A stretch of DNA of 64,000 bases. It comes from Bordetella sp. 02P26C-1. GTDB taxonomy: Bacteria > Pseudomonadota > Gammaproteobacteria > Burkholderiales > Burkholderiaceae_B. Position 1 is the first letter of the stretch. Every line of letters begins with the position of its first letter. The stretch lies in the NCBI RefSeq assembly GCF_009763255.1, contig NZ_WSJB01000004.1:62001-126000 (forward strand), written 5' to 3'. A program made the position numbers and the translations under genes. The notes beneath the pieces are model-generated. The model was not told the DNA's origin. It worked only from the letters and a program-made list of their open reading frames with translations, and did no database searches. Below are positions 1 to 20,087 of the stretch, in pieces.

Positions 1-1065
1 GGCCGTACGGGCAATGACCTGCACTATCGTGGCTACGACATTCTCGACTTCGCGGGTGAAGCCGAATTCGAAGAAATCGCGCACCTGCTTGTGCATGGCA
101 AGCTGCCGAACAAGGCGGAACTGAAGGCGTATAAGGACAAGCTGCGCTCGATGCGCGGTCTGCCGGCGCAACTGCAAACGGCTTTGGAAGCCCTGCCCGC
201 CTCCAGCCACCCGATGGATGTGATGCGCACGGCGGTGTCGGTGCTGGGCTGCGTGCTGCCCGAGAAGGATGACCACAACATCCCGGGCGCGCGCGATATT
301 GCTGACCGCTTGATGGCAAATCTGGGTTCGGCGCTGCTGTACTGGTATCACTACAGCCACAACGGCCACGTGATCGATGTGCAAACGGATGATGACAGCA
401 TTGGCGGTCATTTCCTGCATCTGCTGCACGGTGTGAAGCCTTCGGATGAGTGGGTGCGTGCGATGCACACCTCGCTGATCCTGTACGCGGAGCATGAGTT
501 CAATGCGTCCACGTTCACCTGCCGCGTGATCGCGGGTACGGGGTCGGACATGTACTCGGCTATCGCCGGGGGGATCGGCGCGCTGCGTGGGCCGAAGCAT
601 GGTGGCGCCAACGAAGTGGCGTTCGAGGTGCAAAAGCGTTACGACAGCCCGGACGAAGCAGAGGCCGATATCCGTCGCCGCGTGGAAGCCAAGGAAGTCA
701 TCATCGGCTTTGGTCATCCGGTCTACACGGTTTCGGATCCGCGCAACAAGGTCATCAAGGAAGTGGCTCGCAAGCTTTCGAAAAAAGCCGGTACGACCAA
801 GATGTACGACATCGCCGAGCGGTTGGAGACGGTGATGTGGGAAGTCAAAAAGATGTTCCCGAACTTGGACTGGTTCTCGGCGGTGAGCTATCACATGATG
901 GGCGTGCCGACGGCAATGTTCACGCCGCTGTTTGTGCTGGCACGTACGGCGGGATGGTCGGCGCACATCATTGAGCAACGAGTGGATAACAAGATCATTC
1001 GTCCTACGGCTAATTATGTGGGGCCGGAGGATCAGGAATACGTGCCGCTTTCTAAGCGGAAGTAA
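1..1065 (+). CDS. prpC: 2-methylcitrate synthase PrpC (5' end cut by window)
   Basis: Condenses propionyl-CoA with oxaloacetate to 2-methylcitrate, the first step of the methylcitrate cycle, in the cytoplasm. The frame is open from base 1 ([14 protein letters not shown]...), so the true start lies left of the window and only the last 354 residues are seen. Citrate-synthase signatures are present: [16 protein letters not shown] around the substrate histidine, [13 protein letters not shown], and the C-terminal arginine-rich region before PLSKRK. PrpC is preferred over housekeeping citrate synthase because of its length, the short-form sequence and the prpF/acnD/prpD genes 14 kb downstream. A strong terminator follows at once. 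Confidence 0.93.
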
Positions 1066-1477: not shown

Positions 1478-2086
1478 TTATTTCAACGTCAGGCGCACTT
1501 CGGCAGAGCGGTCCCAAAGGTTCGGGACATGGGCGGAAGAATATCCGGAGACAAATGGTTTAGTCTGTCCGGTGTCGGGATCGAACACATGGCGTGCGAT
1601 CGCGCCTATGTTGCCTCCATACAGGTGAATGCTGATCGACACCGCGTCTTCGCAGGCATTCCAGACGCGATGAATATCTCCCCCGAGGGGGGAGAGGACA
1701 TCAATCTGGCCCGGCTGCAACGCGGTGGGCGCACCATCTGGAACGCAAGCGGAAGCAGTTTTGAGGTAACGCTGGCTGAACTCGCTGCCGCGCAACATAG
1801 CGACGTAGCCCCAGACTGCGTGGTCGTGTACAGGCGTGGACTGGCCCGGTCCCCATACGAAACTCACTAAGCTAAAGCGTTCTAGCGGATCGCAGTGTAG
1901 TAAATGTTGCTGGTAGTACTCAGGGTGTGGTGCTGCGCAGGATTCTGGCAGCCAATCGTCGTGTGCCACGAGGTCTGCCAAAGCCGCCTGCAATGTCGGC
2001 CCGGCCATGCCGCTAGAACCGTGACGATCAGCGAGAAGCGTCGCCTCGGCAACGAAGGCACGCAGGCGGCCTAGGTTGGCAAACAT
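1478..2086 (-). CDS. mdo: Thiol dioxygenase, probable 3-mercaptopropionate dioxygenase
   Basis: Predicted mononuclear non-haem iron cupin oxidising a thiol to a sulfinate. Of 202 residues, iron ligands read as H87 and H89 (TPVHDHAVWG) and H139 (GGDIHR). The outer-sphere triad S152-H154-Y156 (SISIHLY) is present. Known family facts: mammalian cysteine dioxygenase has an Arg that binds the cysteine carboxylate and a Cys-Tyr crosslink. Here Gln60 stands at the position that is Gln in bacterial 3-mercaptopropionate dioxygenase, and a Gly (G93) replaces the crosslink Cys, both pointing to the 3-mercaptopropionate subtype. The start codon overlaps the stop of the acuI-like gene by one base (TAATG), so the two are translationally coupled. 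Substrate is inferred. Confidence 0.8.
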   Translation of the reverse strand: MFANLGRLRAFVAEATLLADRHGSSGMAGPTLQAALADLVAHDDWLPESCAAPHPEYYQQHLLHCDPLERFSLVSFVWGPGQSTPVHDHAVWGYVAMLRGSEFSQRYLKTASACVPDGAPTALQPGQIDVLSPLGGDIHRVWNACEDAVSISIHLYGGNIGAIARHVFDPDTGQTKPFVSGYSSAHVPNLWDRSAEVRLTLK

Positions 2087-3075
2087 TATTGATCCTCTAC
2101 CTTGATTAACACTCGGCCATGCAACAATTTACCGGCTAGCAGCGGCTCGGCATACCTTACCGCCTGGTCTAGCGGTACTTCCTCAGCCATGGTGTCGATA
2201 ATTTCACCGGGAAGGCTGGCACCTAGGTCTGCCCAAGCCACATGACGCTGAGCCATGGGCGCGTAGACACTGTCGACGCCTGCCAGCGTCACGCCGCGCA
2301 AAATGAACGGTGCGACGCTGGCAGGCAGGTCCATGCCTTGCGCCAAGCCGCAAGCGGCGACCACACCACCATAACGCATGGCCGCGCATGCATTGGCCAA
2401 CGTATGGCTTCCCACACTATCTACGACTCCTGCCCAGAGCTCCTTTTGCAGGGGCTTTCCAGGCTCGGATAATTGGGCGCGGTCGACAATGCGCGTCGCC
2501 CCTAGTGCCTGGAGCCGAGCATGAGAGTCGACGCGGCCCGTGCTGGCCACCACCTCATAGCCTCGGCGCGCGAGCAATGCGATAGCAGTACTTCCCACGC
2601 CACCGTTCGCGCCTGTGACCAGCACTGGACCAGTGTCGGGCTTGAGCCCCAGAGCCTCAAGTCGGTGCACGCACAACATAGCCGTATAACCAGCAGTTCC
2701 CAACATCATGCTGCGCCGGGTGGTCAGTCCCTCAGGGACGTGCTGCAACCATTTGGCAGGCACGCGTGCATATTGCGCCAGGCCACCCCATCGAGACTCG
2801 CCCAGCCCCCAGCCATTTAGCAGAACGGCATCACCAGGAGCGAACTCGGGGTCGTCAGAGTGTGCGACCACACCAGCAAAGTCGATACCGGGCACCATCG
2901 GAAACTGCCGCACGACCGGTGCTTTGCCGGTGATGGCTAACGCATCCTTGTAATTTAGTGTAGAGAACTGCACCCTAACCGTGACCGAGCCTTCCGGCAA
3001 TTGATCATGATTGACCTGGGTCAGTTCGGCATGGGTCACTTCATCTCGTTGCAGAAGTAAAGCTGAAAAAGTCAT
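2086..3075 (-). CDS. acuI: Acryloyl-CoA reductase / MDR quinone oxidoreductase (AcuI/YhdH family)
   Basis: NADPH-dependent medium-chain reductase of 329 residues; characterised AcuI enzymes reduce acryloyl-CoA to propionyl-CoA. Seen: GroES-like N-terminus with the family string LNYKDALAITGK, PGIDFAGVV, and the nucleotide-binding GANGGVGSTAIALLARRG. No zinc-ligand cysteine set is visible, as expected for this family. I chose the internal ATG at 3075 because AGGAGG precedes it, rather than the upstream ATG at 3156. It ends in the start of the dioxygenase gene. The neighbouring CoA ligase and crotonase make a CoA-thioester substrate plausible. Confidence 0.83.
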   Translation of the reverse strand: MTFSALLLQRDEVTHAELTQVNHDQLPEGSVTVRVQFSTLNYKDALAITGKAPVVRQFPMVPGIDFAGVVAHSDDPEFAPGDAVLLNGWGLGESRWGGLAQYARVPAKWLQHVPEGLTTRRSMMLGTAGYTAMLCVHRLEALGLKPDTGPVLVTGANGGVGSTAIALLARRGYEVVASTGRVDSHARLQALGATRIVDRAQLSEPGKPLQKELWAGVVDSVGSHTLANACAAMRYGGVVAACGLAQGMDLPASVAPFILRGVTLAGVDSVYAPMAQRHVAWADLGASLPGEIIDTMAEEVPLDQAVRYAEPLLAGKLLHGRVLIKVEDQ

Positions 3076-3162
3076 AGTTCCCTCCTGGTTACTGCGAGGA
3101 TCTCTACGCGGTACGAGCGCGATGCCGGTGACGGCGCGTCTCGGCCCTCGATCCATTGCGTT

Positions 3163-3909
3163 CTAGCGTCCTTCGAATCGAGGTTCGCGCTTACTGCGAA
3201 AACTGTCCAGCCCTTCCTGATAATCGGCGCTGGAGAAAACCCGTTCGGTTTCTCGCCATGCCAAGCCGGCTGTTTCGACGGGGCTTTGCGCGATAGTCGC
3301 CGCCGCGAAGCGTTTAAGCATAGCCATCACCAAGGGGGCGTTACCAGCCAAGCGGCGAGCAAGCTTCATCGCTTCTTCCAAATGCTCACCGGGCTCTGCC
3401 AGACGATTGACCAGCCCGACCTCGTAAGCGCGCTGGGCGTCGACTACGTCGCCTAGCAACATCAATTCCATGGCAACCTTATGCGGAATGCGGGCCGCCA
3501 GCGATGCAATCATTCCTCCGGCGAAACCCAGCTTGGGCTCGGGATAAGTGAAACGCGCGTCGCGCGTGGCCACGCACAGATCGCACATCGCGACCAGTAC
3601 CAGGGCACCGCCGACGCACCAACCGCTCACCGCGGCGATCAAAGGCTTGTCCAGAACCACCCCGACGTTCGGTGTAAAGCTACGATAGTCAGGCGGGCTC
3701 TGAGCATCGCGGTCGCGGCCTGAAGAGAACGCCTTGGTGCCCGCCGCCGTCAGAATACCTACGCGATCCTCGGGGCTGTTATTCAACCGAACCCAGGCTT
3801 GTTGCAGCCCAGCTTCCACCTCTGGGCCGATTGCATTCAGGCGGTCGGGACGATTGATCGAAATGATAGCAACGCCGTCGCGCGATTCATAAGTCACTGC
3901 TTCGCTCAT
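3163..3909 (-). CDS. Crotonase-superfamily enzyme (enoyl-CoA hydratase/isomerase-like)
   Basis: A 248-residue crotonase-fold protein that should act on an acyl-CoA. The oxyanion-hole segments are visible (AFSSGRD; SGWCVGGALVL). Canonical hydratases carry two catalytic glutamates: the second is kept (YPEPKLGFAGG), but the first, normally within GGGCELAMMCD, is replaced (GGALVLVAMCD). A simple hydratase reaction is therefore doubtful; elimination, isomerisation or hydrolysis are alternatives. The start overlaps the ligase stop (ATGA) and AGGAG-like GGAGA precedes it. An 87-base gap separates it from acuI. Confidence 0.8.
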   Translation of the reverse strand: MSEAVTYESRDGVAIISINRPDRLNAIGPEVEAGLQQAWVRLNNSPEDRVGILTAAGTKAFSSGRDRDAQSPPDYRSFTPNVGVVLDKPLIAAVSGWCVGGALVLVAMCDLCVATRDARFTYPEPKLGFAGGMIASLAARIPHKVAMELMLLGDVVDAQRAYEVGLVNRLAEPGEHLEEAMKLARRLAGNAPLVMAMLKRFAAATIAQSPVETAGLAWRETERVFSSADYQEGLDSFRSKREPRFEGR

Positions 3910-5417
3910 AATAAGTCTCCAAGTTGTTTTAACAATTGTGGTTTGAGGACCTTGCCATTCGGCGCGACCGGTAGTGCCGTGACAAACAGGATAAGGGTCG
4001 GCCGTTTGTAAGGCGACAAGCGTTCAGCTAAGTGTCCTCGTAATATGGCTTCCTGCAATTGGGCATCAGACACGGGTTCGACGACGGCGATGATTTCTTC
4101 GTTGCCCGCTCGCGTATGACCGAATACGGCGGATAACTGAACATCGGGATGGCTGTTGAGCGCTGTTTCCACCTCTAACGGCGACACATTAAAGCCGGAG
4201 CGAATAATCAAATCCTTGCTTCGACCCGTAATCTCGATGCGACCGTCGGGCAGACGGCGCGCCAAGTCCTGCGTATTGAACCAGCCATCCGGTCCAAGCA
4301 CGGTCGCCGTGATGTCGGGCGCACGGAAGTAGCCCAACATTACGTTGGGCCCTCGTAACCATAACTCGCCCACGAGTCCATCTGCCAAATCGTGCCCTGC
4401 GGCGTCACGTATACGTAGCTCCACACCGGGTGTCGCGGGACCGACGGAGGTGCCAGGGTCGAGGTCTTCCAGGCGAGTCCAGCAAGTGGCGGAAGCTTCG
4501 GTCAAGCCGTAGCCATTGTGCAGCGGCAGCTTGAACACCGCCTGTGCTTGCGCTTGTAGCGTCGGATCCAGTGGCGCCCCCCCCGCGGCGATAAATCGTA
4601 ATTGAGGCGCATGAATACCATTAGGTGCAGCCTGCATCAGGCGTGCGAACATCGCGGGAGCGCCTTGCAAAATGCTTATGTGCTCATGAGCCAAGGCCGC
4701 CAGGCAGTCTTGCGAATGAAACCGCGCTACCAGCCGAATGTGTGCCCCCGACGACAAGGTGCCAATCAGGCCTGACGAAAGCCCCATGACGTGCGTGATG
4801 GGCAGGACACCGTACACACGGTCGCTGGGCGTGACCTGGCGCAAGGTTCGCATCAGATTGCCGATGTGCAGCAGATTGGCGTGGGTGAGCATGACTCCTT
4901 TCGGGGTCCCCGTGCTGCCAGTGGTATATATCAGCGCGGCGACTTGCCGGTGAGACTCAGGGTACACGGGCTCCGCCATGCTGGAATGGTCCTCCTTGCC
5001 TACCGCTACGGTACCGAATGACCTGGTCTCTTGAACGGCGCCATGTCGCTGCGCATGAACGGCCGCATCGGCCGAAGCATCCAGCACGTACAGCACGCGC
5101 CGGGGCTGCGCCAGACTTATCACCGCGTCAACCTCGAGCACCGCACGACGGGCATTTTCCATCACGGCCCATAAATCGAGTTTGCCCGCCGCCAAAACCA
5201 GGGTGGCCAGTGCCGCGCTGTTTTCCCCAACGAGCATGACGCGCTGGCCGGGTTTCAGGCCCAGCTCGCACAGAAACGCCTTCGCGTCCTCAACGCGCTC
5301 GGCCAGCGCGGCATAGGTCCAGGCTACCTTTGCATCCGACAGGGCTAGCTGCGTGGGTCTAACCCGCGCCCAATGCACCAGGCAATCGGCTAGTCGGTTT
5401 AATGCGGGCGCGCTCAT
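3906..5417 (-). CDS. Acyl-CoA synthetase (AMP-binding, class I)
   Basis: Activates a carboxylic acid to its CoA thioester through an acyl-adenylate. The 503-residue protein shows the P-loop IYTTGSTGTPKG near residue 160, the GYGLTEAS motif, WFNTQDLARRLPDGRIEITGRSKD and the C-terminal catalytic lysine in LPVAPNGKVLKPQ. The ATG at 5417 is chosen because it overlaps the upstream Bug gene stop (ATGA) and follows a GAAGGTGG ribosome site; the ATG at 5456 lies inside the Bug gene. Substrate unknown; a short organic acid delivered by the Bug protein and then processed by the coupled crotonase is inferred. Confidence 0.88.
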   Translation of the reverse strand: MSAPALNRLADCLVHWARVRPTQLALSDAKVAWTYAALAERVEDAKAFLCELGLKPGQRVMLVGENSAALATLVLAAGKLDLWAVMENARRAVLEVDAVISLAQPRRVLYVLDASADAAVHAQRHGAVQETRSFGTVAVGKEDHSSMAEPVYPESHRQVAALIYTTGSTGTPKGVMLTHANLLHIGNLMRTLRQVTPSDRVYGVLPITHVMGLSSGLIGTLSSGAHIRLVARFHSQDCLAALAHEHISILQGAPAMFARLMQAAPNGIHAPQLRFIAAGGAPLDPTLQAQAQAVFKLPLHNGYGLTEASATCWTRLEDLDPGTSVGPATPGVELRIRDAAGHDLADGLVGELWLRGPNVMLGYFRAPDITATVLGPDGWFNTQDLARRLPDGRIEITGRSKDLIIRSGFNVSPLEVETALNSHPDVQLSAVFGHTRAGNEEIIAVVEPVSDAQLQEAILRGHLAERLSPYKRPTLILFVTALPVAPNGKVLKPQLLKQLGDLL

Positions 5418-6382
5418 TGCGGCACCACCTTCATCTCGTCCATCAGCCTTTTCCACCGCTGCAGCTCGGACTGGACATATTGGCCAAACGCCTCAGGAGT
5501 AGAACCCGCCGCCTCGGCGCCAAGCGTCGTCAGAGTTTTGCGCACGCCCTCGGTCTTGAGCAACTCGTTGATTTCGGCACTGACGCGATCCACGATAGGT
5601 TTAGGGGTGCCGGCTGGCGCCCATACTCCGTACCAGGCCGTCACGTCATAGCCGGGAAGGGTTTCGCCAATGGTCGGCACGTCAGGCAGATAACTGGATC
5701 GTTTCGATGTCGTCACACCAAGCACGCGCACTTGATCGGCGGTGATGTATGGCAGCGCCTCGTTCGAAAAGAACATCGTCGTTTGGTCGCCCAGCACGGC
5801 TTGGATTGCTTCGGTGCCACCCTTAAATGGCACATTGACGATCTTTGCGCCGGACATCACTTTCAAAAGCTCGCACGAGAGATACGGCGATGACCCAATA
5901 CCAGAAGTCGAACAGCTCAGCGCTTCGGGGTCACGCTTGGCCAGCACTATTAACTCGGCGACGTCTTTAACGGGTACTTTCTTACCAACAGCCAGATAAT
6001 TGGGTATCGTAATGACCTGAGCGACGGGCGCTAGATCTGTACTCAGGTTGTATAGGGGCTCTTTATAAAAGAACGTGTTGAGCACGTTAGAGATACTGCC
6101 CAGCAAGAAGGTATAGCCATCGGGATCCGCACGCGACACGAATTGGGAGCCCAGCATGCTGCCCGCACCCGGTTTATTCTCAACGACGACGGTCTGTTTC
6201 AGGCTCGTGCCCAGACGCGCGGCAATCATGCGTCCTAATGTGTCCGAAGCGCCTCCCGCCGAGTAAGGCACGATCATCCGAATGGGCTTGTCATTTGGCC
6301 AAGCGGCCTGCGCCTGAAACGGGGCTAGGGCCATCAGCATGAGAGACGCAAACAGGCCGCTAGGGCGTATGTGAAAGCTCAT
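5414..6382 (-). CDS. Bug/TctC family periplasmic solute-binding protein
   Basis: Binds a small carboxylate in the periplasm, usually for a tripartite tricarboxylate transporter. It has 322 residues, a signal peptide (hydrophobic LFASLMLMALAPFQAQA, cleavage likely after AQA) and the family strings WPNDKPIRMIVPYSAGGASDTLGR and VVENKPGAGSMLG. No TctA/TctB membrane genes adjoin it, which is common in Alcaligenaceae where Bug proteins are greatly expanded. GGAGGAG precedes the ATG. It sits between the AhpD-like and CoA-ligase genes in the leftward unit, so it probably senses or imports the pathway substrate. Confidence 0.9.
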   Translation of the reverse strand: MSFHIRPSGLFASLMLMALAPFQAQAAWPNDKPIRMIVPYSAGGASDTLGRMIAARLGTSLKQTVVVENKPGAGSMLGSQFVSRADPDGYTFLLGSISNVLNTFFYKEPLYNLSTDLAPVAQVITIPNYLAVGKKVPVKDVAELIVLAKRDPEALSCSTSGIGSSPYLSCELLKVMSGAKIVNVPFKGGTEAIQAVLGDQTTMFFSNEALPYITADQVRVLGVTTSKRSSYLPDVPTIGETLPGYDVTAWYGVWAPAGTPKPIVDRVSAEINELLKTEGVRKTLTTLGAEAAGSTPEAFGQYVQSELQRWKRLMDEMKVVPQ

Positions 6383-6448
6383 GTTTTATCTCCTCCACCC
6401 CGGTCATGCGGGGTGAGTAATTTTCTTAGTGATGGATGGCCCGCGCGA

Positions 6449-6790
6449 TCAGCGCTGGAATTCCCCGAATGCCTCGAGTGCGCGTGCCGAATACACATAG
6501 GCCGCGCCCGCGTTCAGGGCAATGGCGGTACCGAGCGCTTCGGCGACTTCTTCTTTCGTCGCACCGGCTTGGTGTGCCGCCGCTGCATGAGATGAAATGC
6601 ACCCGTCACAGCGCGTCGTCACTGCCACGGCGAGGGCAATCAACTCGCGCGTTTTGGCGTCCAGCGCTTGGCCCTTAGCCAGCGCCTCGTTAAGCCCGCG
6701 GTACGCGGCGACGACGGGCGGGTTAGATTCGGCAAGAGCCCCGGCTGCTTTGCGCAGGTTGGTCAGGGTGTCGGTCCAGTTATTCATCAT
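6449..6790 (-). CDS. Carboxymuconolactone decarboxylase / AhpD-like protein
   Basis: Small helical CMD-family protein of 113 residues. The AhpD-type redox motif is present: CDGCISSHAAAAHQAG, with the CxxC pair and a following histidine. Family members are either peroxide-reducing AhpD-like enzymes or decarboxylases lacking the cysteines; the CxxC favours the redox type. It lies between the Bug gene and the enolase-superfamily gene in the leftward unit. Its job in the pathway is unclear; protection from peroxide or persulfide by-products is only a guess. Confidence 0.85.
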   Translation of the reverse strand: MMNNWTDTLTNLRKAAGALAESNPPVVAAYRGLNEALAKGQALDAKTRELIALAVAVTTRCDGCISSHAAAAHQAGATKEEVAEALGTAIALNAGAAYVYSARALEAFGEFQR

Positions 6791-6843
6791 GATCTAGCTC
6801 CTTGGTGCTGGTTGGCAAAGTGGCGGCGAATACCGCCAGGGAC

Positions 6844-8046
6844 TCAAGCGCGCGCGCGTGGCTGAATCAGCCCCCCGCCCGATTTGGACGGATGGGCGCG
6901 CAGTGCATCTTCGATAGGGTCGGTTCCCCAACCAGGTCGGTCAGGGAGGATCAAATATCCGTCCTGGTATTGGGGAGCATGTGTAAACAGTTCATCGTCC
7001 CAAGCCAGGCGGTCAATGTCGGTTTCCATAATGCGGAAATTCGGCACCGCGCAAGCAAAGTGCGCGTTCATGAACGTGCACAGGTGGCCATAAAAATTAT
7101 GAGGAGCCACGTTCACTTCATGGGCCTCGGCCAAGTCGGCGATCTTCATCGACTGCCATACCCCATTCCAAACAGCATCGACAATGCCTACATCGATGGC
7201 GTTGGCCCGCAGATAGGGCATGAACTCTCGCGCGCCAAACAATGTTTCGCATGAACTTATTGGGTGAGGGCTATGCTGACGGATATACGCAAGAGCATCC
7301 GGACTGTAGCTGTCGATCTCCACCCAAAACAGATCGTGGTCAGCGATACTGCGCAACAGTTTCAGATAGCCCTCAGTTTTGGCGTTGAAGTTAAGGTCAA
7401 GCAAGATATCCATGTCGGGACCCGCACCGTCGCGCAGGGCTTCGAGGCTGTCGCGCAGATTGCGTATCAATCTGCGCTCAACGTTGAGCTCGGGGTAAAA
7501 CGGGGCGGAAAAACCAGGGCGCCAAGCATGTGCTGGCCCATCGTCGAATAGAAATAAGTTCGTTTTCAGGGCAGTGAAGCCACGCTCTCGTGCGAGTCCG
7601 CCCATGGCTTTCACGCCGTCCAGGTCCGTGACGGGGGGGCCGAAATAAGTCGGATGATTAATGCGCCAGGCTGGGCAGTGTGACCAGTAGACTCGCAAAC
7701 GGTCGCGTACCTTTCCCCCCAGCAGCTCGTAGCAGGGCACCCCTAACGCTTTGGCCCGTACGTCAAGCAAGGCGTTCTCCAGCGCTCCGATCCCCTCGCC
7801 GACCACGCCGCCGGCAGCCGGCCGAGTGCGGCTGTATGCCTCGGCGAAAAAACGTTGCGGCCCCGGCACGGGCTGACCGACCAATCCGCGTGCCAGTTGT
7901 TCGATAACAGCGGTCACGCCTGGTGACCCGAACCCCTCGTCGTACTCGCTCCATCCCACGATGCCTTCATCGGTCTGAACTTTCAAGAAATGGTAATTGC
8001 GCCAACCGGCGTCACACGCCAGAGTCTCGATAGCGGTAATTTTCAT
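6844..8046 (-). CDS. Mandelate racemase/muconate lactonizing enzyme family protein
   Basis: Enolase-superfamily enzyme of 400 residues that should abstract the alpha proton of a carboxylate. Visible ligands: Asp in ILLDLNFN, Glu in FWVEID, Glu in SSCETLFG, and the Asp/His dyad typical of the mandelate racemase subgroup (His in NVAPHNFYGHL). The usual KxK on strand two reads K-T-N (FTALKTNLF), a pattern known in some sugar-acid dehydratases such as galactonate dehydratase. That favours dehydration over racemisation. The ATG at 8046 follows AAGGA; the upstream in-frame ATG at 8118 lacks family homology. Substrate unknown. Confidence 0.85.
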   Translation of the reverse strand: MKITAIETLACDAGWRNYHFLKVQTDEGIVGWSEYDEGFGSPGVTAVIEQLARGLVGQPVPGPQRFFAEAYSRTRPAAGGVVGEGIGALENALLDVRAKALGVPCYELLGGKVRDRLRVYWSHCPAWRINHPTYFGPPVTDLDGVKAMGGLARERGFTALKTNLFLFDDGPAHAWRPGFSAPFYPELNVERRLIRNLRDSLEALRDGAGPDMDILLDLNFNAKTEGYLKLLRSIADHDLFWVEIDSYSPDALAYIRQHSPHPISSCETLFGAREFMPYLRANAIDVGIVDAVWNGVWQSMKIADLAEAHEVNVAPHNFYGHLCTFMNAHFACAVPNFRIMETDIDRLAWDDELFTHAPQYQDGYLILPDRPGWGTDPIEDALRAHPSKSGGGLIQPRARA

Positions 8047-8108
8047 CAAAAAGTCCTTAAGTCCTGAAATATGGGATGAGACTTCTTTAATTCGGGATTT
8101 CTTGAATA

Positions 8109-8135
8109 GTACGCGCAAAATTTTTTCCGTACAAC
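8109..8135 (-). promoter_or_regulatory. Possible promoter and inverted repeat of the leftward catabolic unit
   Basis: On the minus strand TTGTAC and TACTAT are separated by 17 bases, upstream of the enolase-superfamily gene at 8046. Overlapping it is GTACG-N14-CGTAC. The match to the sigma-70 consensus is moderate only, so this is a weak call. Confidence 0.35.
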
Positions 8136-8297: not shown

Positions 8298-9098
8298 CTA
8301 TGCGGATTGAGCGGGGAAGTAAGGGCCGGTGTAGCCCAGCTGACGCGAGATGGCTTCGGCGGCTTCAAGGAGGAGCGGCACACACTCCGCCATCTTGACT
8401 GAAGTCAGCCGATCTAACGGCCCCGAGATGCCTAGTGCCGCTACCGGTCGTTCCAATCCGCTGAAAATAGGTACCGCTACGCCGCCGATGCCGTCGCGCC
8501 ACTCTCCGCGATTGATGGCGTACCCCACGCGTGCGACCTCGGCCAGTTCCTGCTGCAAAACCGCTTCGGTAGCGCGCGTGGTAGGGGTATGCGAATGGAG
8601 TTGGCTCCGGTAGTGCGACAGGTAATCGGTTGGCTGAAAAGCGAGCAAGGCTTTTCCGGTCGCCACAGCATAGGCCGGTGCACGCCCACCAATCGCCGAG
8701 TAAGCCCGTATGGGCTGAGGGCTGTCGATCTTGTCGATGTACACCACGTCTACTCCGTCGAGCACAGACAAATGAACTGTCTCACCCGTCTTCTGCGCGA
8801 GCGAACGCATCTGCGCCGGCGCGTAGGCTCGAACATCCATGTTCGACAACTGCCGAGCACCAATTTCAAACATTTTCAATGTACAACGGTAGCGGCCGGT
8901 TTTTTTGTCGCGGACCATATAACCGGCGTGAGCGAGCGTCTGCAACGTGCGGTGGGTATTGCTTCGTGCCAGTCCGCAAGCCTCGGCGATGTCATCCAGG
9001 GTATTCGCGCGGCCCTCAAGCTGGCTAACGGTCTCCAGCACCATCAGGCCCTTCAGTAGTGTCTTATCCATAGCGGAACCAAGTTGCAACGCCGACAT
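8298..9098 (-). CDS. IclR family transcriptional regulator
   Basis: DNA-binding regulator of carbon-source genes. The N-terminal winged helix-turn-helix is clear (TLDDIAEACGLARSNTHRTLQTLAHAGYM) and the C-terminal effector domain shows PAYAVATGKALLAF and the closing GGVAVPIFSGLERPVAALGISGP. The start is uncertain: ATG 9098 (MSALQLGSAMDK) or ATG 9071 (MDKTLLKGL); neither has a strong ribosome site. The ATG at 9161 is rejected because it lies beyond the operator-like repeat at 9131-9147. It is divergent from the CoA-transferase gene and probably controls both arms of the accessory block. Confidence 0.9.
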   Translation of the reverse strand: MSALQLGSAMDKTLLKGLMVLETVSQLEGRANTLDDIAEACGLARSNTHRTLQTLAHAGYMVRDKKTGRYRCTLKMFEIGARQLSNMDVRAYAPAQMRSLAQKTGETVHLSVLDGVDVVYIDKIDSPQPIRAYSAIGGRAPAYAVATGKALLAFQPTDYLSHYRSQLHSHTPTTRATEAVLQQELAEVARVGYAINRGEWRDGIGGVAVPIFSGLERPVAALGISGPLDRLTSVKMAECVPLLLEAAEAISRQLGYTGPYFPAQSA

Positions 9099-9130
9099 TA
9101 TAGATGTGCTCGACGTCAGCCAACGATGAA

Positions 9131-9192
9131 ATCCTATTAAATAGGATATCTTATATAACATTTGATATTTACATACGTTAGATATAAGATCC
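9131..9192. promoter_or_regulatory. AT-rich divergent promoter with operator-like inverted repeats
   Basis: The region between the IclR gene and the CoA-transferase gene is strikingly AT-rich. It holds a perfect repeat ATCCTAT-TAA-ATAGGAT (9131-9147) and a larger imperfect one with arms at 9144-9159 (GGATATCTTATATAAC) and 9177-9192 (GTTAGATATAAGATCC). Placement between a regulator and its divergent neighbour suggests IclR operators; binding is inferred. Confidence 0.55.
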
Positions 9193-9235: not shown

Positions 9236-10396
9236 ATGAAGCAAGAATCCACCCTGACAGGCGTGAGGGTCATCGAAATCTGCAATGTCGCGGCCGGCCC
9301 TTTTTGCGGGATGCTGCTGGCGGATATGGGTGCCGATGTCGTTAAGATCGAGTCCCCCGGTAGCGGCGACACCTTAAGAAGCTGGTCGCCCATCACCGAC
9401 GGCTACAGCGAAAATTTCGCATCTCTCAATCGCAACAAACGTTCGGTTACGCTGAATCTGAAAGACCCTGCCGATAGGGAGATCGCCGTACAGTTGATCG
9501 CGGATGCTGATGTGTTGATCGAGAATAATCGGCCGGGCGTCATGGATCGCTTGGGGCTGGGATATGCGCAAATGGCAGAGCGCAATCCGCGTCTCGTGTA
9601 CTGCTCGATTTCTGCATATGGCCAAAGCGGTCCACGTAGCCAGGAAGGCGGTTTCGACCTCACTCTACAAGCCATGAGCGGTCTGATGAGCGTGACTGGT
9701 GAACCTGAGGGTGCTCCAGTGAAATGCGGGGTCCCGGTCTGTGATTTCACGGCCGGGTTATACGGGGCCTTTTCCGTCGTCTCCGCGTTACGTGCGGTCC
9801 AGATGGACCAGCCAGGGACACATATCGATGTGTCGATGCTGGGCGCAACGCTGGGTATCGCTGCACTGCAAACGTCGCAATTTTTCGGAACGGGCGTGGA
9901 CCCGGTCAAGCTTGGCTCCGCACATCCTCGCAATGCACCGTACCAAGTCTTTCGCTGCCGAGATGGCTATTTTGGCATGGCAGCAGGCAACGACTCGCTA
10001 TGGAAATCGGTGTGCGAGGTGGTGGGGCGGCCCGACTTGTTCAACGACGTACGTTATGGCAGCACCACCTTACGTGCGGCAAACCAAGACAGTTTGCGCG
10101 AGACCCTCGAAAACATCTTTGCCGGTGAGGATGCGGAGACTTGGCTGACGCGTTTTCGCGCGGCGGGTGTCCCTTGCGCACCCATCAACCGTTATTCCGA
10201 GGTGCTGGTCGATCCCCAGGTCGATCACATGCAATGGGTACAAGATCTGACGCTGCCCAATGGCGCGCATACGCGAACGTTCGTCTCGCCAATCCGCTTT
10301 GATGCGCGACCGGCGAGCGTGATACGTCGTCCGCCGGGATTGGGCGAGCATAATGCCGAGATTTTCGAAGAACTCCGCGCCCGTTTAGCCTCGTGA
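9236..10396 (+). CDS. Class III CoA-transferase (CaiB/BaiF family)
   Basis: Moves CoA between carboxylates without ATP. The 386-residue protein has the N-terminal GVRVIEICNVAAGPFCGMLLADMGADVVKIE, LNLKDPADRE, and the catalytic aspartate (about residue 198) in THIDVSMLGA, equivalent to the nucleophile Asp169 of formyl-CoA transferase. C-terminal PPGLGEHNAEI is also family-typical. GGAACGTA precedes the ATG. It is followed after 7 bases by a second crotonase-like gene. A separate CoA activation route to the ATP-dependent ligase on the other arm is implied. Confidence 0.9.
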   Translation: MKQESTLTGVRVIEICNVAAGPFCGMLLADMGADVVKIESPGSGDTLRSWSPITDGYSENFASLNRNKRSVTLNLKDPADREIAVQLIADADVLIENNRPGVMDRLGLGYAQMAERNPRLVYCSISAYGQSGPRSQEGGFDLTLQAMSGLMSVTGEPEGAPVKCGVPVCDFTAGLYGAFSVVSALRAVQMDQPGTHIDVSMLGATLGIAALQTSQFFGTGVDPVKLGSAHPRNAPYQVFRCRDGYFGMAAGNDSLWKSVCEVVGRPDLFNDVRYGSTTLRAANQDSLRETLENIFAGEDAETWLTRFRAAGVPCAPINRYSEVLVDPQVDHMQWVQDLTLPNGAHTRTFVSPIRFDARPASVIRRPPGLGEHNAEIFEELRARLAS

Positions 10397-10403
10397 GCTG
10401 TTG

Positions 10404-11123
10404 ATGTCAGATACGTTACGCATCGAGAAGACCGCCGTCGCATGGACTTTTACGCTCAATCGCAGCGAGAAACGCAACGCGCTCTGCGCCGAGCTGGTCG
10501 AGGCGCTCATTGCGGGTGTAGAGGCGGCACACGTTCAACAAGTGCCGCTATTGGTGTTTCGCGGAGCCGGAAAAAACTTGAGCGCCGGCTTCGATTTCAC
10601 GGACTACGAAACGCAGAGTGAGGGTGATCTACTGCTGCGCATGGTGCGTATTGAGACACTTCTGCAAATGGTAGCCAGCTCTCCTAGCCTCACCCTGGCT
10701 CTGGCGCATGGGCGCAACTTTGGGGCAGGCGTGGACCTGTTTGCCGCTTGCAAGCTGCGTCACTGTAGTGCCGACGCCACCTTTCGCATGCCCGGATTGA
10801 AGTTCGGCCTAGTGCTGGGCTCGAGGCGGTTTCGCACTCTAGTCGGAACGGCTAAGGCAATATCAATATTGGGCGAAGCCCGTACTTTCGGCGCGGACGA
10901 AGCTCGTGAGATCGGCTTTGTTCTTCAGGTGTCGCCCGAAAACGATTGGCCGGCACTCACGCAGCAGGCCGCCCAAACCGCGACGACTCTCGAGCCTGAC
11001 GTGCGCGTCAGCCTGTACTCGACGCTGGAATTCAATAACCATGACGCTGACATGGCCGCGCTGGTGAGGTCTGCCGCGCGACCCGGGATCAAGGACCGAA
11101 TAGCGCAATACCTATCCGCATAA
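10404..11123 (+). CDS. Divergent crotonase-superfamily protein
   Basis: A 239-residue crotonase-fold protein directly after the CoA-transferase. Oxyanion-hole regions are readable (NLSAGFDFTDYE and AHGRNFGAGVDLFAA), but both catalytic glutamate positions differ from canonical hydratases: Asp in GAGVDLFAACK, and Gly in the segment MPGLKFGLVLG where PE is usual. A plain hydration activity is unlikely. The ATG at 10404 is preferred to the TTG one codon earlier. Partner and substrate are probably those of the neighbouring CoA-transferase. Confidence 0.75.
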   Translation: MSDTLRIEKTAVAWTFTLNRSEKRNALCAELVEALIAGVEAAHVQQVPLLVFRGAGKNLSAGFDFTDYETQSEGDLLLRMVRIETLLQMVASSPSLTLALAHGRNFGAGVDLFAACKLRHCSADATFRMPGLKFGLVLGSRRFRTLVGTAKAISILGEARTFGADEAREIGFVLQVSPENDWPALTQQAAQTATTLEPDVRVSLYSTLEFNNHDADMAALVRSAARPGIKDRIAQYLSA

Positions 11124-13217: not shown

Positions 13218-13249
13218 TCCTTGTCTCCTTTTCCTATGGGTAGACATTA

Positions 13250-13262
13250 GACCTTTAAGGTC
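13250..13262. promoter_or_regulatory. Short palindrome upstream of the Bug gene
   Basis: GACCTT-T-AAGGTC, a perfect 6-1-6 palindrome 33 bases before the Bug start codon; a possible operator or part of its promoter. Confidence 0.3.
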
Positions 13263-13394
13263 GAATTATTTTGAGCAATTGCCGTAACCGGCGTCTGTCT
13301 CTCGTGGCACTTAAAACAAAGCAGTATCCAATCCCAATGCCTCAGGCATGGACGCCAGATTCATTTTTTCTTAGAAGAAGAAACAGGCCAGCAG

Positions 13395-13919: not shown

Positions 13920-13935
13920 GGCTTGACCTTGAAAC

Positions 13936-15030: not shown

Positions 15031-15054
15031 GTTTGTTCCTATCTGACGTTGGTT

Positions 15055-15075
15055 AAAACCACGAAATGTGGTTTT
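15055..15075. promoter_or_regulatory. Perfect inverted repeat upstream of the LLM monooxygenase
   Basis: Arms AAAACCAC (15055-15062) and GTGGTTTT (15068-15075) with a 5-base spacer, 25 bases before the start codon. Size and position fit an operator, for instance of a LysR-type protein (T-N11-A is contained). Confidence 0.45.
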
Positions 15076-15410: not shown

Positions 15411-16610
15411 TCAGCCAGCTGGTTTCGGCGCCCACGGCACTTTCACCCATCCTTCCATCAAGACACGCGCACTGCGCGACATGATCGCTTTCGTGACCGT
15501 CCACTCGCCGTCGACGAGTTTGGCTTCGGCGCCAACTTGCAATGTTCCGGAGGGATGACCGAAGCGCACACCCGTCCGTTCACCGCCGCCTGCGGCGAGA
15601 TTCACCAAGGTTCCCGGAACGGCCGCAGCCGTTGCTATGGCAACCGATGCAGTACCCATCATGGCATGGTGCAGCTTGCCCATGGAAAGCGCGCGCACCA
15701 GCAGATCCACGTCCTTCTCGCCGATGGCTTTACCGCTGGACGCGGTATAGGCGCGTGGTTTGGACACGAATGCGATCTTGGGCGTATGTTGACGGGCAGC
15801 CGCCTGCTCGGGCGAGGCGATCAGACCCATACGCACGGCGCCATACGCACGGATTTTCTCGAAGCGCGCGAGCGCGGTGGGATCACTGTTGATGGCGTCT
15901 TGTAATTCGGTGCCGGTATAGCCCAGGGCTTCCGCATCCAGAAAGATGGTCGGAATTCCCGAGTTAATGAAGGTCGCGCGAAATGTGCCTTCGCCCGGTA
16001 CCTCGAAGTCGTCCACGACGTTACCCGTAGGAAACATCGAGCCGCCCTCGCCTTCGCCTTCGTCAGCCGGATCGAGAAACTCAACCTTGATCTCGGCAGC
16101 CGGAAAGGTCACGCCATCCAGTTCAAAATCCCCGGTCTCTTGCACCTGACCGTTGGTGATGGGGACATGATTCACGATGGTCTTGCCGATATTGGCTTGC
16201 CAAATGCGCACAGTCGCAATGCCGTTCTCGGGGATACGATCAGCATCGACCAGACCATTCGCAATGGCGAACGGACCCACCGCGGCCGACAGGTTGCCGC
16301 AGTTGCCACTCCAATCCACGAAAGCCTGATCGATAGACACCTGACCGAACAGATAATCGACATCGTGATCGGGACGGCTGCTCTTGGACAAGATCACCGT
16401 CTTGCTGGTGCTGGAAGTCGCACCGCCCATACCGTCGATTTGTTTGCCATAGGGATCGGGACTGCCGATGACTCGCATGAGGAGCGAATCGCGATCCGGC
16501 CCGGCTACCTGCGCGGCCGGAGGTAAGTCGGTGAGCTTGAAGAAAACGCCTTTACTCGTACCACCGCGCATATACGTCGCGGGGATTTTGATTTGTGGTG
16601 CGTGCGTCAT
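15411..16610 (-). CDS. prpF: 2-methylaconitate cis-trans isomerase PrpF
   Basis: Isomerises the trans-2-methylaconitate made by AcnD so the methylcitrate cycle can proceed. The 399-residue protein of the diaminopimelate-epimerase fold shows IPATYMRGGTSKGVFF, DPYGKQIDGMGGATSSTSKTVIL and SGNCGNLSAAVGPFA. The ATG at 16610 matches the family start; the longer frame to 16763 runs into the acnD end. It lies 35 bases after acnD in one leftward operon. Confidence 0.95.
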   Translation of the reverse strand: MTHAPQIKIPATYMRGGTSKGVFFKLTDLPPAAQVAGPDRDSLLMRVIGSPDPYGKQIDGMGGATSSTSKTVILSKSSRPDHDVDYLFGQVSIDQAFVDWSGNCGNLSAAVGPFAIANGLVDADRIPENGIATVRIWQANIGKTIVNHVPITNGQVQETGDFELDGVTFPAAEIKVEFLDPADEGEGEGGSMFPTGNVVDDFEVPGEGTFRATFINSGIPTIFLDAEALGYTGTELQDAINSDPTALARFEKIRAYGAVRMGLIASPEQAAARQHTPKIAFVSKPRAYTASSGKAIGEKDVDLLVRALSMGKLHHAMMGTASVAIATAAAVPGTLVNLAAGGGERTGVRFGHPSGTLQVGAEAKLVDGEWTVTKAIMSRSARVLMEGWVKVPWAPKPAG

Positions 16611-16645
16611 GAAGGATCCTGATCTGTCTATTGTCGATTGATTGC

Positions 16646-19261
16646 TCAGCCCGCCTGACTGGTTGCGGTGGCGGACGAGGCTTCGAGAAAGTCTTGCGCG
16701 AAGCGCTGCAACACGCCGCCCGCTTCGTAGATGGAGACTTCTTCGGCGGTATCGAGGCGACACGTGACCGGCACTTCGATCGCGCTTCCATCGCGGCGAT
16801 GCACGATCAGTGTCAGATCGGCGCGCGGCTTACGCTCGCCCACCACGTCATAGGTTTCCGTACCATCGAGCGCCAGCGTTTTACGGTTGGTCCCCGGCTT
16901 GAACTCCAGCGGCAGTACGCCCATGCCGATCAGGTTGGTGCGGTGAATGCGCTCGAAGCCTTCGGCCACAATGGCTTCGACACCGGCCAGACGCACGCCC
17001 TTAGCCGCCCAGTCACGCGAGGAGCCCTGTCCATAGTCCGCCCCCGCCACGATGATAAGGGGCTGCTTGCGTTGCATATAGGTTTCGATGGCCTCCCACA
17101 TCCGCATGGTCTTGCCTTCTGGCTCGACACGCGCGAGTGAGCCTTGTTTGACGCTGCCGTCTTCGTTGCGGACCATCTCGTTATAGAGTTTGGGATTCGC
17201 GAACGTCGCGCGCTGCGCGGTCAGATGGTCGCCGCGATGGGTGGCGTAGGAGTTGAAGTCTTCCTCGGGCAAGCCCATTTTGGCGAGGTATTCGCCTGCG
17301 GCGCTATCGAGCAAGATCGCATTCGAGGGCGAGAGATGGTCCGTGGTGATGTTGTCGCCCAGGACGGCAAGCGGACGCATGCCTTTCAACGTGCGCTCGC
17401 CAGCCAGTGCGCCTTCCCAGTAAGGAGGACGACGGATATAAGTGCTTTGAGGGCGCCATTCGTACAAGGGACTCACGGACTCGCGTCGTGCATCGCGGAT
17501 GCCGAACATCGGTGCGTAGACCTTGCGGAATTGCTCGGGCTTGACGGCCGCGGCCACGACGGCGTCGATCTCTTCCTCGCTGGGCCAGATATCCTTCAGA
17601 CGAATATCGTTGCCTCTCGCATCCTTGCCCAGCACATCACGTTCGATATCGAAACGAATGGTGCCTGCGATGGCGTACGCCACTACCAATGGCGGCGAAG
17701 CAAGGAACGCTTGTTTGGCATAGGGGTGAATCCGCCCATCGAAGTTGCGGTTACCCGATAGCACTGCCGTCGCATACAAATCACGGTCGATGATTTCTTG
17801 TTGGATCTTGGGGTCCAACGCACCAGACATGCCGTTGCATGTGGTACAGGCGAACGCAACGATACCGAAGCCAAGCTTCTCGAGCTCGCTGGTTAGTTGC
17901 GCTTCGTCGAGATAAAGCTCGACGGCCTTGGATCCAGGCGCGAGCGAAGTCTTCACCCACGGTTTGCGAGTCAGTCCCACGCGGTTCGCGTTGCGCGCCA
18001 GCAAGCCCGCGGTGATGACGTTGCGCGGATTGCTGGTGTTGGTGCAGCTCGTGATCGCGGCAATGATGACAGCGCCATCGGGCATCAAGCCGGGCTCATT
18101 TTCCACCACGCCCGCGATACCGCGCTCGGCCAGATCCGACACCGGCAAGCGGCGATGGGGGTTCGACGGTCCCGCGAGCGTGCGCACCACGCTGGAAAGA
18201 TCGAAGCGCAGCACGCGTTCGTATTCCGCATTCTTCAAGCTGTCCGCCCACAAACCGGCCTGCTGCGCATACGTCTGCACGAGCTGTACTTGCGCGTCCT
18301 CGCGGCCGGTGAGCTTCAGATAATCGATCGTCTGTTGATCGATGAAGAACATCGCTGCCGTCGCGCCGTATTCGGGCGCCATATTCGAAATCGTCGCGCG
18401 GTCGCCCAAGGTGAGGCTGGATGCGCCCTCGCCATAGAACTCCAGGTACGCACCCACCACGCGCTCTTTGCGCAGGAACTCGGTGAGCGTCAACACGATA
18501 TCGGTCGCGGTGATACCCGGCTGCGGTTTACCCGTCAGCTCAACGCCCACGATATCGGGCAAGCGCATCCACGACGCGCGGCCCAACATCACGTTCTCGG
18601 CTTCCAGACCGCCCACGCCGACCGCGATCACGCCCAAAGCGTCGACGTGCGGTGTGTGACTGTCGGTGCCGACCAATGTGTCGGGAAACGCCACGCCATT
18701 CTGCGCATGGATAACCGGCGACATGCGTTCCAGATTGATCTGGTGCATGATGCCGTTACCCGGCGGCACGACTTCGACGTTATGAAACGCCTCGCGCGTC
18801 CAATCGATAAAGTGAAACCGGTCGTCGTTGCGGCGATCTTCGATGGCGCGGTTCTTCGCAAAGGCATCCGGTTCATAGCCGGCGTGTTCCACGGCCAGCG
18901 AGTGATCCACAATCAGCTGCACCGGGACAACGGGACTGACCTTGGCGGGGTCGCCGCCCATATCAGCGATGGCATCACGCAGACCCGCCAGATCCACCAG
19001 CGCAGTTTGGCCCAGAATGTCATGGCACACCACGCGCGCGGGAAACCACGGGAAATCCAGATCGCGGCGGCGCTCGATCAACTGACGCAGCGCATCGTTC
19101 AACAAGGCCGGATCGCAGCGGCGCACCAGATTTTCCGCGAGCACACGCGAGGTATAAGGCAAGCGGTCATACGCACCTGGCGCGATCGCATCGACCGCGG
19201 CGCGCGCATCGAAATAGTCCAGCTCGGTGCCGGGTAAGGGCTTGCGAAATTGAGAATTCAT
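16646..19261 (-). CDS. acnD: Fe/S-dependent 2-methylisocitrate dehydratase AcnD
   Basis: Aconitase-like enzyme dehydrating 2-methylcitrate; 871 residues, the usual AcnD length. The [4Fe-4S] cysteines are in AAITSCTNTSNPRN and FACTTCNGMSGALD; other signatures are GTDSHTPHVDALGVIAVGVGG, LGDNITTDHLSPSNAI and GADYGQGSSRDWAAKGVRLAGVEAIVAEGFERIHRTNLIGMGVLPL. The next gene, prpF, is the obligate AcnD partner. The start codon overlaps the GntR stop (ATGA), so regulator and enzyme are in one transcription unit. Confidence 0.96.
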   Translation of the reverse strand: MNSQFRKPLPGTELDYFDARAAVDAIAPGAYDRLPYTSRVLAENLVRRCDPALLNDALRQLIERRRDLDFPWFPARVVCHDILGQTALVDLAGLRDAIADMGGDPAKVSPVVPVQLIVDHSLAVEHAGYEPDAFAKNRAIEDRRNDDRFHFIDWTREAFHNVEVVPPGNGIMHQINLERMSPVIHAQNGVAFPDTLVGTDSHTPHVDALGVIAVGVGGLEAENVMLGRASWMRLPDIVGVELTGKPQPGITATDIVLTLTEFLRKERVVGAYLEFYGEGASSLTLGDRATISNMAPEYGATAAMFFIDQQTIDYLKLTGREDAQVQLVQTYAQQAGLWADSLKNAEYERVLRFDLSSVVRTLAGPSNPHRRLPVSDLAERGIAGVVENEPGLMPDGAVIIAAITSCTNTSNPRNVITAGLLARNANRVGLTRKPWVKTSLAPGSKAVELYLDEAQLTSELEKLGFGIVAFACTTCNGMSGALDPKIQQEIIDRDLYATAVLSGNRNFDGRIHPYAKQAFLASPPLVVAYAIAGTIRFDIERDVLGKDARGNDIRLKDIWPSEEEIDAVVAAAVKPEQFRKVYAPMFGIRDARRESVSPLYEWRPQSTYIRRPPYWEGALAGERTLKGMRPLAVLGDNITTDHLSPSNAILLDSAAGEYLAKMGLPEEDFNSYATHRGDHLTAQRATFANPKLYNEMVRNEDGSVKQGSLARVEPEGKTMRMWEAIETYMQRKQPLIIVAGADYGQGSSRDWAAKGVRLAGVEAIVAEGFERIHRTNLIGMGVLPLEFKPGTNRKTLALDGTETYDVVGERKPRADLTLIVHRRDGSAIEVPVTCRLDTAEEVSIYEAGGVLQRFAQDFLEASSATATSQAG

Positions 19262-20046: not shown

Positions 20047-20087
20047 CTGGCGTGTGTAGCTGGCACGCCCATTTGGGAGACTGCCGT

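Follow-up and report, generated by a model that had tools for sequence, protein, structure and literature searches.

A mercaptopropionate dioxygenase operon and a divergent CoA-transferase-crotonase unit in Bordetella sp. 02P26C-1: a possible route from 3-thiopropionate compounds to propionyl-CoA

Gene content of the operon and its surroundings

We analysed a stretch of 64,000 nucleotides (hereafter the window; contig NZ_WSJB01000004.1, positions 62,001 to 126,000; G000:C33:62001-126000 in our numbering) from the genome of Bordetella sp. 02P26C-1, which is 4.1 Mb in size and given as 100% complete. Near its left end the minus strand carries genes for an enolase-superfamily, mandelate racemase-like enzyme (MR), an AhpD-core protein, a Bug-type binding protein, an acyl-CoA ligase (Acl), a crotonase (Ech), the acryloyl-CoA reductase AcuI and a thiol dioxygenase (Mdo), transcribed in that order, with the gene of an IclR-family regulator upstream. 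Divergent from these, on the plus strand, are genes for a class III CoA-transferase (CaiB) and a second crotonase (Ech2), followed by a LysR-like open reading frame (ORF). These two units are considered here as a possible catabolic system for 3-thiopropionate compounds.

An initial annotation of the interval 1478-8046, made from the sequence alone, had described genes for the dioxygenase, AcuI, crotonase, ligase and Bug protein, and all five were found in their places on the minus strand; the interval also holds AhpD and MR, neither of which had entered its reasoning. The tight coupling that it reported is likewise present, with TAATG at the acuI/mdo junction, ATGA at the ligase/crotonase junction and an 87-base gap from the crotonase stop to the acuI ATG, and a further ATGA joins the Bug and ligase genes. 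A scan for promoters and terminators gave counts at chance level (5 vs 3.4; 6 vs 8.0). Methylcitrate genes adjoin the locus, as had been claimed, and do so on both flanks: prpB and prpC lie to the left, and prpF, acnD and prpD to the right. Each of the five scores above its NCBIfam cut-off (Table 1).

The dioxygenase was compared with solved structures using phmmer against the PDB. It matched 3uss/4tlf (2e-65) and 4wvz (4e-64), which are named 3-mercaptopropionate dioxygenase (3MDO), as well as 4qma (8e-68) and 6xb9 (6e-66), both deposited as cysteine dioxygenase type I; we take 6xb9 to be Av3MDO. Mercaptosuccinate dioxygenase (Msdo) was matched at 1e-7 and cysteine dioxygenase (CDO) type 1 at 9e-5 or worse, so that by E-value the nearest of the three to Mdo is 3MDO. 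Residues Q60, H87, H89, H139, S152, H154, Y156 and R165 are invariant across 19 Mdo sequences, among them the Mdo encoded beside act-acd in a presumed Advenella mimigardefordensis genome, and H87, H89, H139, Y156 and R165 correspond to H90, H92, H142, Tyr159 and Arg168 of Av3MDO, each offset by 3. Three histidine iron ligands, a Ser-His-Tyr triad and Arg168 are described as features of 3MDO (PMC8050391, PMC10966181), with Arg168 of Av3MDO binding the substrate carboxylate (PMC8050391). All of these are present in Mdo, including the Arg168 equivalent, a point that the initial annotation did not raise when it assigned the gene from Q60, H87/H89/H139 and S152-H154-Y156. Judged from its sequence, the window dioxygenase indeed belongs with the 3MDO homologues rather than with CDO, and at E 0.001 the genome yields no other CDO_I match.

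AcuI, which had been taken for an acryloyl-CoA reductase, scores above the NCBIfam acrylyl_AcuI equivalog cut-off (495.2 bits vs 440). This match begins at residue 30, and the true start of acuI is therefore likely to be the ATG near 3075.

Table 1. Genes of the operon, the divergent unit and the methylcitrate flanks, with positions in the window and NCBIfam scores against cut-offs
Gene or product	Position	Strand	Assignment and remarks
prpB	L002, further left of window		NCBIfam 532.7 > 353
prpC	91..1065	+	2-methylcitrate synthase; NCBIfam 614.2 > 550; 5' part left of window
mdo	1478..2086	-	3-mercaptopropionate dioxygenase homologue, predicted to convert thiol to sulfinate; three His, Ser-His-Tyr (SHY) motif, Arg168 equivalent
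acuI	2086..3156	-	acryloyl-CoA reductase (NADPH); NCBIfam acrylyl_AcuI; likely true start ~3075
ech (Ech)	3163..3909	-	crotonase, Pfam ECH_1; E124 (E164 of rat enoyl-CoA hydratase, ECH), V104 at E144 place; proposed 3-thioether acyl-CoA eliminase
acl (Acl)	3906..5456	-	AMP-forming acyl-CoA ligase, AMP-binding; likely ATG start 5417, overlaps Bug stop
Bug/TctC-type periplasmic binding protein	5414..6382	-	Pfam TctC
AhpD-core protein (CMD family)	6449..6790	-	family-model matches
Enolase-superfamily (mandelate racemase-like, MR) enzyme	6844..8118	-	ATG start 8046 or TTG 8118; PDB 2oo6 relative
IclR-family regulator	8298..9161	-	sits between the two units
caiB (CaiB)	9236..10396	+	class III CoA-transferase, Pfam CoA_transf_3; candidate for 3-sulfinopropionate activation
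ech2 (Ech2, crotonase2)	10401..11123	+	second crotonase, Pfam ECH_1; D112 at E144 place, G132 at E164 place; candidate Acd substitute
prpF	15411..16763	-	2-methylaconitate isomerase; 747.7 > 440.55; ORF start probably too far upstream
acnD	16646..19261	-	Fe/S-dependent 2-methylisocitrate dehydratase; 1802.6 > 1419.85
prpD	20052..21539	+	2-methylcitrate dehydratase; 905.4 > 575

Absence of Acd and conservation of the operon

The desulfinase Acd, the only enzyme known to take off the sulfur in the final step, was sought with the NCBIfam model NF042439 (3-sulfinopropanoyl-CoA desulfinase; cut-off 600 bits). Of the 16 acyl-CoA dehydrogenase places in the genome (PF02771), the best reaches 269.7 bits, two of the 16 giving no NF042439 row at the E-values used, and the genome contains no Acd equivalog. 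The observation that no desulfinase is visible at the locus thereby extends to the whole genome. Neither was there an Acd match in the window genome at 1e-130, and its acyl-CoA dehydrogenases are 36% or less identical to the Acd of locus L131, an Advenella-like act-acd cluster; a hidden Acd elsewhere in the genome is ruled out by these figures.

Among 268 genomes of the family, 163 carry Mdo, and the Acd equivalog is missing from 141 of these; all 22 genomes with Acd above the cut-off also carry Mdo. In 11 loci checked from these 22 genomes an Act-like gene (at least 67% identical to L131 Act) always lies within about 2 kb, and in a second set an Act-like gene (74-78%) was found at 6 of 10 Acd loci, with none at L293, L307, L309 and L311. 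One further genome, G199, encodes an Acd-like protein (L245:7026; 43% identity to L131 Acd; 480.5 bits vs the cut-off of 600), with no Act-like match in the stretch. A tree of 54 Mdo rows (Mdo only, several being partial tblastn segments) placed the five Acd-linked rows in one clade (98/91), while the labels for the operon and for CaiB-Ech2 were intermixed.

Conservation of the operon was followed through Ech, which was searched in the 268 genomes at 1e-50 with ten candidates scored per genome; loci of 18-19.5 kb each, and the first 24 kb of the window, were then compared. Sixteen genomes hold Ech at 72% identity or more. Ligase, Bug and AhpD accompany it in all 16 loci, MR in 15, Mdo and AcuI in 14 each, IclR in 13, and CaiB and Ech2 in 6. 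The gaps fall in G110 (MR, AcuI and Mdo), G076 (AcuI) and G048 (no Mdo at that place), and the Mdo of G208 lies about 8 kb from Ech; in G047 Mdo is split over two tblastn segments (L090:9690-10275). Somewhere in the genome all 16 have both Mdo and Ech2; 14 are without the Acd equivalog and 2 have it. This gene association exceeds chance.

A sister genome of the same genus (G095, L100) shows the order Mdo-AhpD-IclR/CaiB-Ech2, with no MR there. At the position that AcuI-Ech-Acl-Bug occupies in the window, its Mdo and AhpD matches are separated by about 70 bases; the genome has no Ech match at 1e-50 and no Acd. Because G095 retains mdo, ahpD, iclR, caiB and ech2 without the AcuI-Ech-Acl-Bug block, this block appears to be separable from thiol oxidation, and the arrangement suggests that Mdo does not need the ligase, crotonase and AcuI.

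In L095, L096, L109, L110, L114 and L115, more distant Ech relatives (43-53% identity) are accompanied by Mdo and by a protein some 700 residues long. The L096 protein, the one scanned, combines the CoA-binding, Succ_CoA_lig and ATP-grasp domains found in ADP-forming acyl-CoA synthetases, and a relative of it is also found in the named genomes of Advenella alkanexedens (L178) and Ottowia thiooxydans (L210). A CaiB of 60-68% identity is nearby in L096, L109, L110, L178 and L210. As far as these sequences indicate, the crotonase is constant while the type of CoA ligase differs between loci (L096 vs the window). In Paraburkholderia xenovorans LB400 (L148), AcuI-Acl-Ech, MR-Bug and Ech-ligase are all grouped with CaiB-Ech2; the Mdo match of this genome is on the same chromosome 2, some 12 kb outside the locus. 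The scan of named genomes for the crotonase returned a very broad family, and the best 80 of 581 confirmed were used; Mdo was present in all 12 of the named genomes searched for it (picked from the 80, six already having Mdo in the locus).

Active sites of the two crotonases

Among the 25 NCBIfam matches listed of 71 for Ech, no cut-off was reached, and the same holds for Acl (25 of 107). The AlphaFold model of Ech (pLDDT 95.5) has the crotonase fold, and a fold search with the model returned generic crotonases. Active-site residues were read from an alignment to 3trr and from alignments A1 and A4 (30 and 44 rows, overlapping sets), using rat ECH numbering. A glutamate (E124) occupies the E164 place in 30 of 30 and 44 of 44 rows. 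The E144 place (position 104) is never an acid, with V in 29 rows and T in 1 in the smaller alignment, and V 27, T 5, C 4, I 3, L 3, S 1 and M 1 in the larger. Compared with the pair of acids in enoyl-CoA hydratase, AcuH and DmdD, Ech has thus kept E124 and has V104 in place of Glu144.

For AcuH, both glutamates are reported to be essential for acryloyl-CoA hydration (PMC5651017); for DmdD, the E121A variant is reported to have lost all activity and E141A nearly all (PMC3660561). Since AcuH and DmdD need both glutamates and Ech has no E144-type acid, Ech is probably not a hydratase. An identity with DmdD or AcuH is excluded, both having two catalytic glutamates and Ech one. A lone base at C-alpha would fit an E1cB elimination in which the leaving group, such as a thiolate, departs without help from an acid.

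These residues also bear on a reductive route for 3-hydroxypropionate (3HP) or acrylate, in which a ligase, a dehydratase and AcuI would be co-transcribed with mdo by chance. A ligase, a crotonase and AcuI do match the shape of that route as outlined in PMC6572756. The crotonase is, however, without the E144-type residue essential in AcuH, and Mdo is found in all 16 operon genomes and inside the locus in 14, and we regard the reductive route as very unlikely.

A different role for Ech was put forward in the initial annotation: the ligase would activate 3-sulfinopropionate, Ech would eliminate the sulfur group as sulfinate or sulfite to leave acryloyl-CoA, and AcuI would reduce it. The coupling of Acl, Ech, AcuI and Mdo, the absence of Acd and the retained C-alpha base for elimination are all consistent with this. 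The chemistry is not, as the group expelled when a sulfinate undergoes alpha,beta-elimination is sulfoxylate (S +II). Such an elimination would release sulfite from a sulfonate only; Acd frees sulfite by hydrolytic desulfination. Moreover, Ech at 72% identity or more is missing from 147 of the 163 Mdo-bearing genomes, and among the 16 operon genomes 2 also hold Acd and all hold Ech2. Given the sulfoxylate leaving group, the gene content of G095, where mdo is retained without the block, and the association of Ech2 with Mdo, we consider this elimination quite improbable. That part of the earlier pathway is not supported; the C3-thiol dioxygenase, the acryloyl-CoA reductase, the supply of propionyl-CoA to the methylcitrate genes and the lack of Acd are.

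The second crotonase, which together with CaiB lay outside the initial annotation, is a close relative of PDB 3isa, a structure solved under a putative name. All 27 Ech2 sequences checked, the most distant at 34% identity, have D112 and G132 as well as R80, E85 and R120. With D112 for Glu144 and G132 for Glu164, Ech2 also departs from the two acids of enoyl-CoA hydratase. Its active site reads as the mirror image of that of Ech, with an acid near C-beta and no base at C-alpha.

Ech2 is present in 108 of the 268 genomes, 103 of them with Mdo, and at least 67 of 110 Ech2 loci lie within 12 kb of a listed mdo. Fisher tests on these genome counts take no account of common descent and are given no weight as proof. 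CaiB adjoins Ech2 in 35 of the 36 loci examined (the window; 12 of 12; 22 of 23), L235 being the exception. Ech2 is the crotonase that most often accompanies Mdo in the family, and it occurs in 88 of the 141 Mdo-bearing genomes without the Acd equivalog. The layout of a CoA-transferase, a cleaving enzyme and Mdo repeats that of Act-Acd-Mdo, and Ech2 is therein a candidate desulfinase.

A proposed two-part pathway and its alternatives

We propose, with a probability of roughly 40%, that the locus encodes a catabolic system in two parts, which takes 3-thiopropionate compounds to propionyl-CoA without Acd; all substrates, and all reactions beyond the general chemistry of the Mdo and AcuI families, are what we infer. 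In the first part, Acl would form the CoA ester of a 3-thioether acid, for which 3,3'-thiodipropionate (TDP) serves as the model, though the natural substrate may differ. E124 of Ech would abstract the alpha proton and a thiolate would leave C-beta, giving 3-mercaptopropionate and acryloyl-CoA, and AcuI would reduce the latter to propionyl-CoA. In the second part, Mdo would oxidise the thiol to 3-sulfinopropionate (3SP), CaiB would transfer CoA to it, and Ech2, with D112 near C-beta, would take the place of Acd and free sulfite to yield propionyl-CoA. The methylcitrate genes of both flanks would consume the propionyl-CoA of both parts. A sharper version is more doubtful: Ech, with just the C-alpha base, would be a lyase that splits thioether acyl-CoA into acryloyl-CoA and 3-mercaptopropionate, and Ech2, a 3isa-family member with just the C-beta acid, would work without flavin as a 3-sulfinopropionyl-CoA desulfinase in place of Acd in many Mdo-bearing genomes of the family. 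In the open-access literature (titles and abstract openings, with subscription papers mostly outside), we found no crotonase described as a 3SP-CoA desulfinase and no Acl-Ech-AcuI route from thioether acids.

Several known systems resemble parts of this proposal. Variovorax paradoxus TBEA6 is reported to need two ech genes of its mdo/act/acdA cluster for growth on TDP but not on 3SP (PMC6370202). That cluster (acdA, act, ech-20, ech-30, crotonase 05510, mdo) and the window both bring mdo and crotonase genes together, and a CoA-activated cleavage to 3-mercaptopropionate has been proposed there, Ech-20 being stabilised by TDP-CoA and a beta-elimination to acrylyl-CoA being one of the proposed variants (PMC6370202). 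TBEA6 differs in having acdA and act and in that its acrylyl-CoA is thought to become 3HP-CoA (PMC6370202), whereas the window has AcuI for reduction and no Acd. We were not able to find a tandem Ech-like pair beside act-acd in 20 stretches around 10 Acd loci. The dimethylsulfoniopropionate (DMSP) lyase DddX likewise joins CoA ligation to the loss of a sulfur leaving group from C-beta, giving acryloyl-CoA (PMC8163506). It is, however, a single enzyme of the acyl-CoA synthetase superfamily that performs both steps on a sulfonium (PMC8163506), whereas the window has a separate ligase and crotonase, and Mdo hints at a thiol product. DmdD and AcuH share with the window crotonases the fold and the use of CoA esters in C3 sulfur or acrylate metabolism, and differ in their two catalytic glutamates (PMC3660561, PMC5651017), of which Ech has one and Ech2 just an aspartate at the E144 place.

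The closest parallel in gene content is the cluster for 3,3'-dithiodipropionate (DTDP) in A. mimigardefordensis DPN7T, described as prpB-prpF-acnD-prpC-xre-lysR-act-acd-mdo-ahpD-tctC-tctC (PMC5373536). It shares with the window Mdo, TctC/Bug, methylcitrate genes and genes of the CMD/AhpD type and for a class III CoA-transferase, and the presumed end product is the same; the window is without acd and adds acl-ech-acuI, MR and ech2. The CMD-family gene that follows mdo in the Advenella-like cluster (L131:3382-4071) encodes 229 amino acids; the DPN7T-type AhpD gene is longer than the window AhpD and no close relative of it, the window AhpD having no match at 1e-10 in L247. This last locus, from genome G050, follows the gene order known from the publication (prpF-acnD-prpC...act-acd-mdo...TctC-TctC), mdo being followed by a CMD-family gene, and on that order we take G050 for DPN7T. 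G050 has two mdo genes: one accompanies act-acd (L247), and the other belongs to a second, window-type operon copy (L092) and has no mention in the DPN7T literature consulted.

A number of observations weigh against the two-part system. TDP itself may not be the substrate, because the presumed DPN7T genome holds the operon (L092) in a strain known for DTDP, and TDP users are few, TBEA6 being reported as one of them (PMC6370202). As to the first cleavage, the TBEA6 authors state that a first assay of Ech-20 showed no activity (PMC6370202), and the kinship of Ech with Ech-20 and Ech-30 is at present a candidate link. DmdD, a crotonase with both glutamates, is described as freeing no methanethiol from the saturated thioether ester methylmercaptopropionyl-CoA (MMPA-CoA), so that crotonases do not appear to cleave thioether CoA esters by default (PMC3660561).

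With regard to the second cleavage, Mdo-bearing genomes include 7 with Acd and without Ech2, 15 with both and 53 with neither, and Ech2 is therefore no strict replacement for Acd. Loss of SO2 from C-beta would need a carbanion that the thioester does not stabilise, and the mechanism asked of Ech2 is unproven chemistry. CaiB and the Act-like gene of L131 share 35% identity over 389 residues, within the same superfamily; this identity gives little ground for calling CaiB a plain Act orthologue. Five genomes have Ech2 without Mdo. In L241 and L242 the unit reads IclR-CaiB-Ech2, two CoA_trans-family genes, a second ligase and then Mdo (L242:6099-9163), which suggests a longer pathway there; L227 and L238 have the genes of this unit, with Mdo not in the stretch. 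The first CoA_trans gene resembles glutaconate CoA-transferase subunit A (5mzw, 5e-29), neither of the two matches an NCBIfam model at 1e-10, and the matches to the first in the window genome are 28% and 27% only. As CaiB-Ech2 is found without Mdo and with extra CoA-transferase-family genes and a ligase, it may have another primary role.

The operon may also have nothing to do with thioethers. Mdo lies inside the stretch in only 8 of the best 80 named Ech loci (many of these stretches being short), which indicates that the wider Ech family, whose members occur in many contexts, has other uses. On such grounds the operon could degrade an acid that is no thioether, with Mdo serving a generic thiol (cysteine, cysteamine) or detoxification, as the 53 Mdo-bearing genomes with neither Acd nor Ech2 would allow. 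We hold this to be unlikely, since Mdo retains the Arg168 equivalent and SHY motif of 3MDO, and since the neighbours of mdo-acd in the published Advenella cluster likewise include Bug proteins, prp genes, a class III CoA-transferase and a CMD-family gene.

The MR-like gene is left unexplained by the two-part scheme. MR is a close relative of PDB 2oo6 (E 7e-219; five entries, under a putative name only), is present in 15 of the 16 operon loci and also lies near Acd in L249 and L293. Members of the enolase superfamily perform beta-eliminations, and MR could in principle cleave the C-S bond of the free acid through a Mg-stabilised enediolate, eliminating the thiol to leave acrylate for the ligase and AcuI (PrpE-AcuI type), with a side role for Ech. 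However, no substrate was found for the 2oo6 family in the records consulted, MR and Ech lie close together but on opposite strands in LB400 (L148) and P. heleia (L149), and the pairing of Ech with an unrelated ligase in other loci would be left without explanation. Cleavage by MR is in our judgement improbable, and we retain the two-part system with Acl-Ech and CaiB-Ech2 as the preferred reading.

Other genes of the window may touch the same metabolism. An acetate--CoA ligase is encoded at 52528-54507 (992 > 725) and the propionate--CoA ligase PrpE at 56472-58361 (1105 > 955); PrpE could also activate acrylate or propionate. Between CaiB-Ech2 and prpF (12237-15078) lie genes for a Bug protein, a flavin reductase and an LLM-class FMNH2-dependent monooxygenase, the latter scoring 191 of 518 bits with the SsuD model and 152 of 383 with the SfnG model. 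This is possibly another C-S cleaving set for organosulfur compounds, and a relative of the monooxygenase (56%) is found near CaiB-Ech2 in L100.

The window thus names small, concrete candidates for both of the missing C-S cleavages, Acl with Ech for one and CaiB with Ech2 for the other. They could lead to functions for two families that have solved structures and putative names, those of 3isa and 2oo6, and they are of relevance to the breakdown of industrial thioether acids and of precursors for polythioesters.

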